DNA from: Chitinophagales bacterium
GTDB lineage: Bacteria > Bacteroidota > Bacteroidia > Chitinophagales > UBA10324
Assembly: GCA_019694975.1 (NCBI GenBank)
Contig: JAIBAY010000008.1
Coordinates: 124,001 to 188,000 of the forward strand
Length of the DNA: 64,000 nt
Reading direction: 5' to 3'
The position numbers and the translations under genes were made by a program. The notes beneath the pieces were generated by a model that had not been told where the DNA came from, did not search any database, and saw only the letters and a program-made list of their open reading frames with translations. This document shows, piece by piece, positions 1-49,177 of this stretch. The number at the start of each line of letters is the position of its first letter. The first letter of the stretch is position 1.

Positions 1-236
<236 letters not shown>

Positions 237-501
237 TTAGTGATGATAAATAACCCGGTGCAAGATAAGAAAAGTGCAATGGTTTAAAGTGTTGGGCCTT
301 GTCACCAGTATGTCATGACCGATCATCACACGCGCGTCATCCACCTGCCATTGCGATTGCCAATATGTTCAGGGGAGCATGGTTATTTGCCTTGCTGCAT
401 TATGGTGCTGAAAAATGATGCTCTATCCCGGAAGCATAACTAAATAAAGCGAGTCAGCAAAGGCAAATATGCGAGGGTTACGGTACTACCGGGTTTTAGG
501 A

Positions 502-45440: not shown

Positions 45441-46289
45441 TTATATTTTTACAAATTTCCGTGTTATCGTTTTATCGCCCGTTCTCAACTCAATAATATA
45501 AGTTCCATTAGCAAAATCTGACAATGAGAAGGAGGCGTATTGCTTTCCTTCCTGCTGTATGTCTTGTTGCAGCATGGCCAGCCTTTTTCCTGATAAGTCA
45601 TATAATGAAATGACCACTGCAGTGCTGTTGGACAGATAGTAACTGAGCAGTATTTCAGATGACGCCGGGTTAGGGTAGAGGCTGAACTCATGGCTATCGC
45701 AGATATCATCGATTCCTACACCAAATGCTTCCGGTATTGTAAGTGTGGAAGTGTGGATCACATCACCACTCGTATTGTTATTGTTGTTGGAAAAGTTAAA
45801 TGCACCGTAAAAAGTTACATCACCGGTGCCTGCAATTGGTGCTGTCCAGGAAAAACTCCAGGTGGCAGTATGGCCGGGCCAAGTTGTTCCTGCACTTTTA
45901 TGGGTGATGTACTTATTCGTATTGCTTGTAAATTTTGTCTTATTGGCATCCAGCAAGGCCATTGTTCCTAAAAGTGTACCGGCATTATTCTGCGGTGAAA
46001 TCTGAAAGCCGAATTTAGTCAGCGAAGGATCAGTGATGCTGGCAGTAATGGTGTAGGTATAGCCGGGCACATAACCGGTTGCCGGCACATCGGAAGTAAT
46101 CACATCAGATATCAGCGTAGCAGTGCCCGGGTGGCAGCCTAAGCGTGCGCAGGTCTTGTTATCAGCCGGTGATCCTGTATTGCCTGCCGGCGCACCTGAA
46201 CCATTACCTTCCGCTGGCTGCAATGAATTACCGGCGACAATAATTGCTGCAATGAGGGAGAAAACTATGAATCGTGTATTTCTTTTCAT
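45441..46289 (-). CDS. Secreted paralogue 1: C-x4-CH domain protein with T9SS type A sorting domain
   Basis: 282 residues with a signal peptide. The mature N-terminus is proline/glycine rich ('GNGSGAPAGNTGSPADNKT') and runs into Cys47-x4-Cys52-His53 ('TCARLGCHPG'). A beta-sandwich domain of ~150 residues follows ('YTYTITASITDPSLTKFGFQISPQ', 'WSFSWTAPIAGTGDVTFYGAFNFSNNNN'), of the choice-of-anchor V/Reeler-like type. The C-terminus ('FSLYPNPASSEILLSYYL' to 'RKFVKI') is a T9SS sorting domain. The two other copies lie immediately upstream on the same strand. C-x4-CH is an attested, rarer haem-c attachment spacing, so haem or metal binding is possible. Function unknown. Confidence 0.86.
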   Translation of the reverse strand: MKRNTRFIVFSLIAAIIVAGNSLQPAEGNGSGAPAGNTGSPADNKTCARLGCHPGTATLISDVITSDVPATGYVPGYTYTITASITDPSLTKFGFQISPQNNAGTLLGTMALLDANKTKFTSNTNKYITHKSAGTTWPGHTATWSFSWTAPIAGTGDVTFYGAFNFSNNNNNTSGDVIHTSTLTIPEAFGVGIDDICDSHEFSLYPNPASSEILLSYYLSNSTAVVISLYDLSGKRLAMLQQDIQQEGKQYASFSLSDFANGTYIIELRTGDKTITRKFVKI

Positions 46290-46308
46290 GGCAAAATTAA
46301 TTCGGCCG

Positions 46309-46316
46309 CAAAGCTA
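46309..46316 (-). promoter_or_regulatory. Promoter -7 element TAGCTTTG for secreted paralogue 1
   Basis: Minus-strand TAnnTTTG match 19 nt before the start. With four following bases it forms TAGCTTTGCGGC, identical to the promoter of paralogue 2. Confidence 0.6.
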
Positions 46317-46483
46317 AACTATGCAACTGAGATTCTTCAGCAGCTGCGGTAAAAGCGATAGTATCAAAACTGATGCTTTCATTTTTTTTGAAGGAAATCA
46401 AAGCTTAATAAACAGCGGGCAGCAGACAGCGGACAGTCAGCCGGAAATTTTGATGATAATATTTCGGCAGCGGCTGCCGGGAA

Positions 46484-46511
46484 AAAGCAAACCCTTCCGT
46501 TGCCGGAAGGG
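46484..46511 (-). terminator. Intrinsic terminator after secreted paralogue 2
   Basis: On the minus strand a 7-bp stem CCCTTCC/GGAAGGG with a 6-nt loop is followed by TTTGCTTTTT. It lies about 160 nt downstream of the paralogue 2 stop. Confidence 0.6.
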
Positions 46512-46672
46512 CTTGCCTCGCATGAATCAAATGGAATGAGGGGTTTAAAGGAATTATCTTTTATGCATTGCAGCTGACTTCAGTAAACAACATCGGATTT
46601 GACTGAAGCAAAACACAGTCGGGGAAATTTACTGATGAACATATCCTTGAAATTTTCGAATGAAGCATCATG

Positions 46673-47524
46673 TTAAAGCCTGGTAACTTTTCTCGTAATC
46701 ACCTGGTCGCCGGCATGTAGCTTTACTATATACACACCCGATCCGACATCGCTGAGTGGAAGGTCAATATGATAGGTGCCGGGAGCCTGGTCATTCCTGC
46801 TCAGTTCCTTCACTGCTTTGCCCGACAAATCAAACAAAGTAATATCCACCGGCCCTGCCTGTGAAAGTGCGTAGCTGATATTCACATGATCGGCTGCCGG
46901 ATTCGGAAATACATTAAGTGATTCTATGCTTACCACATCGTTGACAGCCGTGCCAAAGCCTTCGGGAATCACAAGTGTTGCAGTATGAATCACATCGCCG
47001 CTTGTTCCGCCATTGTTGTTGGCAAAATCAAATGCTCCGTAGAAAGTTACATCACCTGTTCCTGCAGCAGGAGCGGTCCAGTGAAATGACCATGTTGCCG
47101 TATGATCAGGGAATAAGTTTCCATTGCTGGTATGGGTAATATATTTATTGGAGCTGCTCGTGAATTTGGTTTTTACGGCATCTGATATTGACATAGTTCC
47201 AAGCACAGTGCCCGCTGTATTTTGCGGTGTTATTTCAAACCCGAACTTAACCAGGTTTGGATCGGTGATGGTGGCTGTTATTGTGTATGTAGAATCCGGA
47301 ACATAACCGGTTACAGGAACATCGGAAGTGATTACATCAAAAATTGCTGTTGATCCGCCGGGATGACAACCGCTTTTTGCACAGGTCTTACCATTATCAC
47401 CCGGAGCTCCGGCAACCGATGATGGCGCTCCTTCGGGATAGCTTGTGGCAGAATGCATGGACAGACCGATGATGGCCATGCCGGTGAAAAGTGTAAACGC
47501 AATAAAAAGTAAGTTCTTTTTCAT
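46673..47524 (-). CDS. Secreted paralogue 2: C-x4-CH domain protein with T9SS type A sorting domain
   Basis: 283 residues. Signal peptide 'MKKNLLFIAFTLFTGMAIIGLSMHSATS'. 'YPEGAPSSVAGAPGDNGKT' leads to Cys48-x4-Cys53-His54 ('TCAKSGCHPGG'). The domain that follows ('STYTITATITDPNLVKFGFEITPQ', 'GNLFPDHTATWSFHW') is nearly colinear with paralogue 1 and shares the GTVLGTMSxxDAxKTKFTSxxNKYITH core. The C-terminal sorting domain is 'LNVFPNPAADHVNISYAL' to 'ITRKVTRL'. Own promoter (47542-47549) and terminator flank it, so the three copies are not a single operon. Probably arose by duplication; target surface and role unknown. Confidence 0.86.
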   Translation of the reverse strand: MKKNLLFIAFTLFTGMAIIGLSMHSATSYPEGAPSSVAGAPGDNGKTCAKSGCHPGGSTAIFDVITSDVPVTGYVPDSTYTITATITDPNLVKFGFEITPQNTAGTVLGTMSISDAVKTKFTSSSNKYITHTSNGNLFPDHTATWSFHWTAPAAGTGDVTFYGAFDFANNNGGTSGDVIHTATLVIPEGFGTAVNDVVSIESLNVFPNPAADHVNISYALSQAGPVDITLFDLSGKAVKELSRNDQAPGTYHIDLPLSDVGSGVYIVKLHAGDQVITRKVTRL

Positions 47525-47541
47525 ACCAATTTTGTTTGCCG

Positions 47542-47549
47542 CAAAGCTA
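47542..47549 (-). promoter_or_regulatory. Promoter -7 element TAGCTTTG for secreted paralogue 2
   Basis: Minus-strand TAnnTTTG match 17 nt before the start codon; extended TAGCTTTGCGGC is shared with paralogue 1. Confidence 0.6.
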
Positions 47550-47789
47550 TCCGTCAGGCCCTTACCCTTAAAATGTTATGCACTGAGCGGGCGATTTTTG
47601 AGCTCGACCGGTAAAAACACACCTTCGGATAATATCATCATTCGAAAGAGCTTCATTATCAGCTATCTCAAAACAAGCAATCAATGCGGTCATGCCGGAT
47701 TTATTTCTGCATCTTAAAAAGTTGTAATTGAGGTTCAGCGGAGCAACGATTTGGAGTTGAAAAGAACACCCGTCGGTATGCAGGTGGAC

Positions 47790-47821
47790 AAAAAAAAGGG
47801 GGAACATTGCCCCCCTTTTTT
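47790..47821 (-). terminator. Strong intrinsic terminator after secreted paralogue 3
   Basis: GGGGG-AACATTG-CCCCCC hairpin preceded by A8 and followed by T6 on the plus strand, so it reads as a terminator on either strand. It lies 18 nt beyond the stop of the minus-strand gene at 47840. Confidence 0.8.
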
Positions 47822-47839
47822 AATTTTCAAACGCTAAGA

Positions 47840-49135
47840 TTATTCTGTCTTAACGATTTTAATGACCTGTTGAACGTCACCTTGTTCGATTCTCACAAAG
47901 TAAATTCCGGGTGTAAGGTCTTCATTGATTTCAAAAGGCATTGCAGGGTCAACATCATTATAAATATGAATGGCTCTGCCACTGATATCCAGCAACCTGA
48001 TGATGGCCTTTTCTTTAGACAATGAACCGATTTGTATGTTGACCGCATTGCTGAACGGATTAGGATAAGCGGCAGCATTAATGGCAGGCTCTTCACCCAT
48101 CTTGCAACTAATCGTAACGGCTGTTGCTTTGGATGTTTTATTGCAACCGGTTGCCGTTATCGTCACTTTCACGGTATAGGAACCAGATAGTGTTGCGAGG
48201 TAAGTACTGTTGGTCGCACCACTGATATTCACACCATCTTTCTGCCATTTGTAGGTAACACCGGTTGTTGGAGTGCCGCCTCTGGTCAGCAATATGCTGC
48301 CTGCTGTACAAGCCCCTGCTGAAATAGTAGCGGTAGGTGCCGGATTTACGGTTATCGTTACCGTCTTACTGCAAGCGCCTCCGTCTCCGGTAACCGTATA
48401 GGTAGTTGTTGAAGTGGGTTTGGCAACAACAACAGCACCGGTCGTAACATCAAGGCCGGTGGATGGTGCCCAGGTATAGGATGTTGCTCCGCTGGCAGTA
48501 ATGGTTTGTTTGCTGCCTTTGCAGATAGTAGCGGCCACCGGTGTAACAGTAAGGTTACAGGCAGATACGGCTTCCTGCACCGTGTAGGTGGAGGTTTTAA
48601 CTATGTCGCCACTTGTGCCGCCATTATTATTGGCATACATGAAAGAACCGTAAAAGGTAACAGCGCCTGTTCCTGCAACCGGAGCTTTCCAGTTGAAAGA
48701 CCAGGTGGCAGTATGCCCGTTCCAGGTATTGCCTGAAGTGGTGTGGGTGATGTACTTGCCGTTTGATGCAGTGAATTTGGTTTTTGTTGCATCTGTCAGG
48801 CTCATCGTACCCAATACTGTACCGGCTGCGTTTTGTGGTGAAATCTCAAAACCGAATTTCACCAGCGATGGATCTGAAATGGTTGCCGTTACCTGGTAGG
48901 TTGTGCCGGGCACATAACCGGCTGCCGGAATGTTTGATGTCATGGCATTCAGCATGGTGCCTGCCGTTCCGGAATGGCATCCGCTCTTTGTGCATGTTTT
49001 GTTATTGTCGCCGGGCGATCCTGTTACGGATGATGGTGCACCGTCGGGATAACTGATGGCTGTGATAAAAGTTGCGCTGATTAAACCGCTTGCAACAACG
49101 ATGAAAATCAGCAAAGAATGTAATTTGTTTTTCAT
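47840..49135 (-). CDS. Secreted paralogue 3: C-x4-CH domain protein with two added Ig-like modules and T9SS sorting domain
   Basis: 431 residues. Signal peptide to 'ISATFITA'. 'YPDGAPSSVTGSPGDNNKT' leads to Cys48-x4-Cys53-His54 ('TCTKSGCHSG') and the same ~150-residue domain ('TTYQVTATISDPSLVKFGFEISPQ', 'NGHTATWSFNWKAPVAGTGAVTFYGSFMYANNNGG'). It differs by about 155 residues inserted before the sorting domain (about 195-350): an Ig-like module ('CNLTVTPVAATICKGSKQTITASGATSYTW') like those of the 32329 protein, and a second ('PTATISAGACTAGSILLTRGGTPTTGVTYKWQKDG'). The tail 'NAAAYPNPFSNAVNIQIG' to 'VIKIVKTE' is the T9SS type A domain. It is the most upstream of the three. Confidence 0.88.
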   Translation of the reverse strand: MKNKLHSLLIFIVVASGLISATFITAISYPDGAPSSVTGSPGDNNKTCTKSGCHSGTAGTMLNAMTSNIPAAGYVPGTTYQVTATISDPSLVKFGFEISPQNAAGTVLGTMSLTDATKTKFTASNGKYITHTTSGNTWNGHTATWSFNWKAPVAGTGAVTFYGSFMYANNNGGTSGDIVKTSTYTVQEAVSACNLTVTPVAATICKGSKQTITASGATSYTWAPSTGLDVTTGAVVVAKPTSTTTYTVTGDGGACSKTVTITVNPAPTATISAGACTAGSILLTRGGTPTTGVTYKWQKDGVNISGATNSTYLATLSGSYTVKVTITATGCNKTSKATAVTISCKMGEEPAINAAAYPNPFSNAVNIQIGSLSKEKAIIRLLDISGRAIHIYNDVDPAMPFEINEDLTPGIYFVRIEQGDVQQVIKIVKTE

Positions 49136-49169: not shown

Positions 49170-49177
49170 CAAAACTA
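49170..49177 (-). promoter_or_regulatory. Promoter -7 element TAGTTTTG for secreted paralogue 3
   Basis: Minus-strand TAnnTTTG match 34 nt before the start codon; the flanking GCGGC of the other two paralogues is not conserved here. Confidence 0.5.

Follow-up and report, generated by a model that had tools for sequence, protein, structure and literature searches.

Among the proteins that have been described, cytochrome f and the porin-cytochrome conduits are two of those to which the products of the genes considered here show likenesses. Cytochrome f, known from plants, is a c-type cytochrome built on a beta sandwich, in which about 20 residues separate the mature N-terminus from the haem motif (the letters were checked against the PDB). 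In the Mtr and Pcc conduits two cytochromes, one a lipoprotein and one at the surface, are encoded together with a barrel of the outer membrane. In c-type cytochromes the two-residue spacing of CXXCH is regarded as almost fixed; departures from it count as rare exceptions, possibly dependent on a dedicated synthase. In this study, we analysed three paralogous genes in a window of 64,000 nucleotides (the whole stretch of DNA, positions 124,001 to 188,000 of contig JAIBAY010000008.1) from a Chitinophagales bacterium, whose products combine a signal peptide, a C-x4-C-H motif, a choice-of-anchor V (choice V) domain and a type IX secretion system (T9SS) tail. We show that the motif occupies one orthologous site that varies freely from one to six residues between its cysteines, a result that goes beyond the preliminary description of this DNA. 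That description had proposed that the family may carry a haem or a metal. The haem half of this idea is strengthened by the invariant C and CH, by a fold match to cytochrome f and by a cytochrome c as operon partner, although haem is still a candidate and a metal its rival. With a probability of about two in three, these products are c-type cytochromes that are exported, carry a single haem and combine a reeler- or cytochrome-f-like fold with an elastic attachment motif.

Spacing of the C...CH motif

The three proteins score 98.7, 106.1 and 101.6 bits (paralogues 1, 2 and 3; cut-off 42) with the curated model NF041895, which confirms the choice-of-anchor V assignment made earlier; five to six further loci in the set for this genome also lie well above that cut-off. 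NF041895 has no stated function, and in the library searched it carries no description of haem or of variable cysteine spacing; in the likeliest papers on 'choice-of-anchor' domains other letters (J, K) are treated and nothing was found on V. Further motifs can be read directly in the three proteins (GTLLGTMALLDANKTKF, GTVLGTMSISDAVKTKF and GTVLGTMSLTDATKTKF).

Our first sample, drawn from about 260 Bacteroidota genomes, comprised 205 distinct domains. CX4CH is found in 92 of them, CX2CH in 66, CX1CH in 25, CX3CH in nine, CX5CH in seven and CX6CH in three, the remaining domains being truncated or, once, degenerate; relatives with CxxCH at the same place, as stated in the preliminary description, do exist and stand at 66 against the 92 with CX4CH. 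Whatever the spacing, the first cysteine is conserved in 99 % and the second cysteine and the histidine in 100 % of 202 domains. A second collection of 89 domains from 80 loci contained 53 CX2, 25 CX4, seven CX3, two CX6 and one CX5 motifs. Pairs of domains can be alike outside the motif and yet unlike in spacing (82 % identity for X4 against X3, 71 % for X4 against X2 and 70 % for X4 against X1). Parsimony on a FastTree tree gave 69 changes of spacing, compared with about 123-132 in three of 50 label shuffles; at least 35 changes were left when all branches of support below 90 were collapsed, and on the uncollapsed tree CX1CH was gained or lost at least about eight times. In one domain (L102:562-1071) the second cysteine has been lost and the histidine kept (CGTSTSH), which makes it a natural single-cysteine variant.

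Fold of the domain and its gene partners in relatives

A profile of 85 members best matched the reeler domain of Spondin-1 (E = 6e-5, over the sandwich), followed only by cytochrome c haem sites, which were matched weakly (best E 0.018). Structures were compared using AlphaFold models of the paralogue 2 domain (mean pLDDT 93.8) and of a CX2CH relative from Nonlabens (pLDDT 88.9). Foldseek found a reeler with the paralogue 2 model (E 1e-8), and VIA-align found it with both (Z 14.0 over 129 residues at 2.5 Å for paralogue 2; Z 12.4 for the relative). The cut-off of the Pfam Reeler family PF02014 is passed by some relatives (L011, L017 and L009), and the window proteins gave no match to PF02014 at E up to 1. 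Judged by the models, the three proteins are reeler-like in fold, as had been suspected, and lie outside PF02014. A beta sandwich is what the choice V domain has in common with the reeler of F-spondin (2zot, 2zou and 3coo), whereas the N-terminal CXnCH segment is missing from eukaryotic reeler domains; since the reeler is matched from model residue 17-24 and, in sequence, from profile position 52, the segment is not a shared reeler feature.

Next after the reeler, VIA-align aligned the paralogue 2 model with cytochrome f (16 entries, Z 9.1-10.2, 138-143 residues, 3.3-3.6 Å), model residues 11..172 lying on residues 1..251 with the haem-bearing N-terminus included. The first aligned model residue, 11-12, corresponds to Tyr29/Pro30 of the precursor and is paired with residue 1 of cytochrome f, and Tyr29 is likely to be the mature N-terminus. 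With the CX2CH relative the alignment to cytochrome f reached Z 10.3-11.3 (138-145 residues, 3.1-3.4 Å, model 1..159 on 1..259). Unrelated Ig-like folds gave Z of about 8-9.7 and mostly started at residue 28-46, past the motif. No paper that relevantly links cytochrome f with reeler domains was found in the literature.

Directly downstream of the choice V gene, relatives have a gene on the same strand for a lipoprotein of some 115-145 residues. Ten of these lipoproteins share an invariant lipobox cysteine, a C...CH motif, Met-Pro, Trp and Gly, and some copies match cytochrome c models weakly. Here too the spacing differs at one orthologous site, from CX2CH to CX10CH (L027, L001, L022, L246, L210 and L086), a wider range than that of the surface protein. 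In 60 genomes, such a lipoprotein cytochrome lies at most 1.7 kb downstream of 17 of the 119 choice V domains (0.1 expected), and in 13 of these loci a DUF5777 barrel also lies about 1.5 kb from the choice V domain; of 67 DUF5777 places, 57 have a lipoprotein cytochrome no more than 3 kb away (0.3 expected). These expectations assume even gene placement and the 60 related genomes are not independent, but the excess is still more than hundredfold. The genome that contains the window has one cluster of choice V, lipoprotein cytochrome c, YceI (PF04264) and DUF5777 outer-membrane barrel genes (PF19089, E 1e-91) on C6, the order of which is identical in G008 (L281), and its lipoprotein carries a CX10CH motif (CTGTVSSSLGSCH). 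DUF5777 barrels also adjoin lipoprotein cytochromes where there is no choice V gene (G000:C4:211730-217120 in the same genome, and many other places). The DUF5777 and lipoprotein cytochrome pairs look like an undescribed porin-cytochrome system of Bacteroidota; we found no mention of DUF5777 in the literature, and no paper joining type IX secretion, a c-type cytochrome and extracellular electron transfer.

Proposed haem attachment and alternative explanations

According to the model that we favour, the proteins would be exported unfolded by Sec, and a CcsBA-type machinery in the periplasm would attach one haem to both cysteines of C-x4-C-H, the histidine that follows the second cysteine becoming the near axial ligand. 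Two Cytochrom_C_asm proteins (PF01578), one of them of CcsBA size, are encoded in the same genome. The type IX system would then carry the folded domain, as a holoprotein, across the outer membrane, where its C-terminal tail would serve either to anchor it at the surface or to release it. As in cytochrome f, the attachment motif would lie in an N-terminal stretch against the beta sandwich, so that the free N-terminal amine, 15-30 residues further upstream (the ligand in cytochrome f), or a conserved histidine in an 'ITH' strand may be considered for the sixth ligand, and one to six residues between the cysteines would be tolerated by the family. The likely job would be to exchange single electrons between the outer membrane and an extracellular partner, because in relatives the choice V protein is the outermost part of a cytochrome/YceI/DUF5777 cluster; the surface protein probably forms the outward-facing end of an electron relay that resembles the porin-cytochrome type.

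Several points weigh against this model. Spacings other than two are described as very rare and as served by dedicated synthases (PMC10663686), and no haem precedent was found for CX1CH. Cytochrome f was returned by VIA-align only and was not listed in the Foldseek top 50 for the paralogue 2 model, and in an all-beta domain a Z of about 10 could reflect shared architecture. A profile comparison with cytochrome f gave no sequence homology (hhalign probability 2.6 %), and for this reason we claim a likeness to cytochrome f and not membership. In most cases 15-33 residues separate the predicted mature N-terminus from the histidine (home-made cleavage-site score), compared with 24 in cytochrome f, and this varying distance would weaken the case for a fixed N-terminal amine ligand; the ITH histidine, in turn, is replaced by Gln in 13 %. 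Neither a cytochrome nor YceI or DUF5777 is encoded next to the three window genes; because the partner genes are absent there, we infer their role by analogy with the family, and by that analogy they would do the same job as their clustered relatives. Co-occurrence with cytochrome c maturation was also considered as a haem test and was uninformative, since the maturation family is present in all of the 258 Bacteroidota genomes tested.

The alternative nearest to our model, which we regard as unlikely, retains the haem and attaches it by one thioether to the second cysteine, with its histidine, leaving the first cysteine free or structural and its position drifting. Single-cysteine c-haems are known, and a drifting first cysteine would explain both the many changes of spacing and CX1CH. 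However, conservation of that cysteine in nearly every member is hard to explain if it is dispensable. The other alternatives do without haem. That the Cys-Cys-His triad of a reeler-like surface domain binds a metal ion (zinc, iron or copper) seems improbable to us: an invariant triad of variable spacing would fit in principle, and two further copies in the same genome have neighbours that point to metals, the C7 copy (CEYCH) adjoining a CueO-like multicopper oxidase near a CusA-like pump (L279:6128-8527) and the C1 copy (CSDCH) preceding a T9SS protein in which four metal-binding (copper) motifs of MopE type occur (L280:7596-11156). Yet the histidine always comes directly after the second cysteine, which is the c-haem signature, there is no invariant fourth ligand, the operon partner, a cytochrome c, has a motif of this type too, and the second fold match is cytochrome f. 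The least probable explanation is a structural disulfide in an ordinary adhesin or matrix domain like the eukaryotic reeler domains. The reeler is indeed the best fold match, and many family members contain repeats of surface-protein type (Ig, PKD, SprB or HYR), but a disulfide would not need the invariant histidine, a spacing of one residue would force a strained CXC ring on 25 members, and the motif falls outside the part that is shared with the reeler.

Attachment of one haem by both cysteines is therefore the explanation we prefer for the window proteins. For the family as a whole we would stop somewhat short of even odds, and tentatively propose that choice V is a large unrecognised class of surface monohaem, cytochrome-f-like cytochromes, with a spacing of 1-6 (2-10 in the lipoprotein partner) and ordinary CcsBA maturation, forming the outer end of a new DUF5777/YceI porin-cytochrome conduit of Bacteroidota.

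The genes of the window and comparison with known systems

The coordinates and motifs of the three open reading frames (ORFs) on the minus strand, with C-x4-C-H near residues 47-54, were verified (Table 1), as was the C-terminal sorting domain, which all three carry above the cut-off of TIGR04183/PF18962. Paralogue 3 alone among the three has an extra linker region of about 160 residues between the domain and the tail. A PorU sortase is encoded in the same genome (G000:C3, 1374 bits), and by sorting domain and sortase the three proteins are predicted T9SS cargo.

Table 1. Positions of the three genes, their motifs and flanking signals in the window, and of the gene cluster elsewhere in the same genome
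Feature	Position	Strand	Content or basis
Paralogue 1, 282 aa	45441..46289	minus	Signal peptide, CX4CH, choice-of-anchor V/reeler-like domain, T9SS tail
Paralogue 2, 283 aa	46673..47524	minus	Signal peptide, CX4CH, choice-of-anchor V/reeler-like domain, T9SS tail
Paralogue 3, 431 aa	47840..49135	minus	Signal peptide, CX4CH, choice-of-anchor V/reeler-like domain, T9SS tail
C-x4-C-H motif, paralogue 1: CARLGCH, residues 47-53	46131..46151	minus	Sequence reading, motif tally
C-x4-C-H motif, paralogue 2: CAKSGCH, residues 48-54	47363..47383	minus	Sequence; invariant columns C30 C35 H36, alignment A3
C-x4-C-H motif, paralogue 3: CTKSGCH, residues 48-54	48974..48994	minus	Sequence reading, motif tally
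T9SS type A sorting domain, paralogue 1, residues 204-281	45447..45680	minus	TIGR04183 E = 2.1e-15
T9SS type A sorting domain, paralogue 2, residues 205-280	46685..46912	minus	TIGR04183 E = 4.6e-14
T9SS type A sorting domain, paralogue 3, residues 357-429	47849..48067	minus	TIGR04183 E = 2.1e-10
Promoter core TAGCTTTGCGGC, 5' of paralogue 1	46305..46316	minus	12-mer search, TAnnTTTG count
Promoter core TAGCTTTGCGGC, 5' of paralogue 2	47538..47549	minus	12-mer search, TAnnTTTG count
Promoter-core-like TAGTTTTG, 8 nt, starts -42 from ATG of paralogue 3	49170..49177	minus	TAnnTTTG scan
Hairpin resembling an intrinsic terminator, with T run, 3' of paralogue 3	47799..47815	minus	Terminator scan
Cluster of choice V, lipoprotein cytochrome c, YceI, DUF5777 barrel	G000:C6:177560-180444 (L278:6540-9517)		Own genome

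The genome has six members of the family, the three window copies and one each on C6 (CGTSDCH), C7 and C1. In a tree of 278 domains, from which the motif columns were left out, the window's paralogues form one clade with support 92; outside the motif they are 63-74 % identical to each other, and the nearest outside relative reaches at most 62 %. The three are each other's closest relatives, and a local duplication is for this reason supported by the sequences; the preliminary description had called it recent, but at identities of 63-74 % it is not a very recent one. Several other genomes have tandem pairs, some of them with unlike spacings (CX4CH beside CX2CH in L200, L203 and L231). One CX2CH member (L269) lies on a contig named Chloracidobacterium and would be outside the Bacteroidota if the bin is correct.

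It had also been proposed that paralogues 1 and 2 share a promoter 12-mer at the same distance and that each copy has its own terminator or gap. The 12-mer TAGCTTTGCGGC is indeed identical in both and has exactly two copies in the window, only 5' of these genes (0.4 expected with at most one mismatch), at distances from the ATG that are nearly but not fully equal (starts at -27 and -25). A promoter special to the pair was rejected: TAnnTTTG occurs at most 120 nucleotides upstream of 13 of the 39 window ORFs, a third of them (about 0.036 expected per ORF), and TAGCTTTGCGGC is therefore a generic Bacteroidota sigma-A promoter core with its -7 element. As for terminators, the scan found a good one for paralogue 3 and, on the genes' own strand, none for paralogues 1 and 2, although a hairpin with T after it can be made out by eye near 46520-46480.

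If the site does bind haem, its 35 or more changes, with every value from one to six present in nature, would provide a ready test set for the tolerance of the CcsBA synthase. Members with CX1, CX5 or CX6 would escape genome screens for CX2-4CH such as that in PMC10734462. With a real haem, several hundred proteins that are named only by their anchor would turn into candidates for surface redox proteins, and the choice V/lipoprotein cytochrome/YceI/DUF5777 cluster would be a concrete candidate for exchanging electrons across the outer membrane of Bacteroidota. In known systems haem c is likewise attached at unusual motifs, namely CX3CH and CX4CH in multihaem cytochromes, CX15CH in MccA and CXXCK in NrfA (PMC10734462; PMC10663686); however, these are fixed at particular sites, some with dedicated synthases, whereas the choice V site moves among spacings of 1-6. 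The likeness to cytochrome f consists in the beta sandwich, the motif near the N-terminus and the whole-domain alignment in two models, but cytochrome f has CX2CH, is anchored in the membrane, carries a small second domain and belongs to the b6f complex, whereas the choice V protein would be exported by the T9SS. The choice V cluster, without which the window copies stand, differs from the Mtr and Pcc conduits in its monohaem parts, its DUF5777 barrel, YceI and export by the T9SS; like them, it encodes a barrel, a lipoprotein cytochrome and a putative surface cytochrome together.

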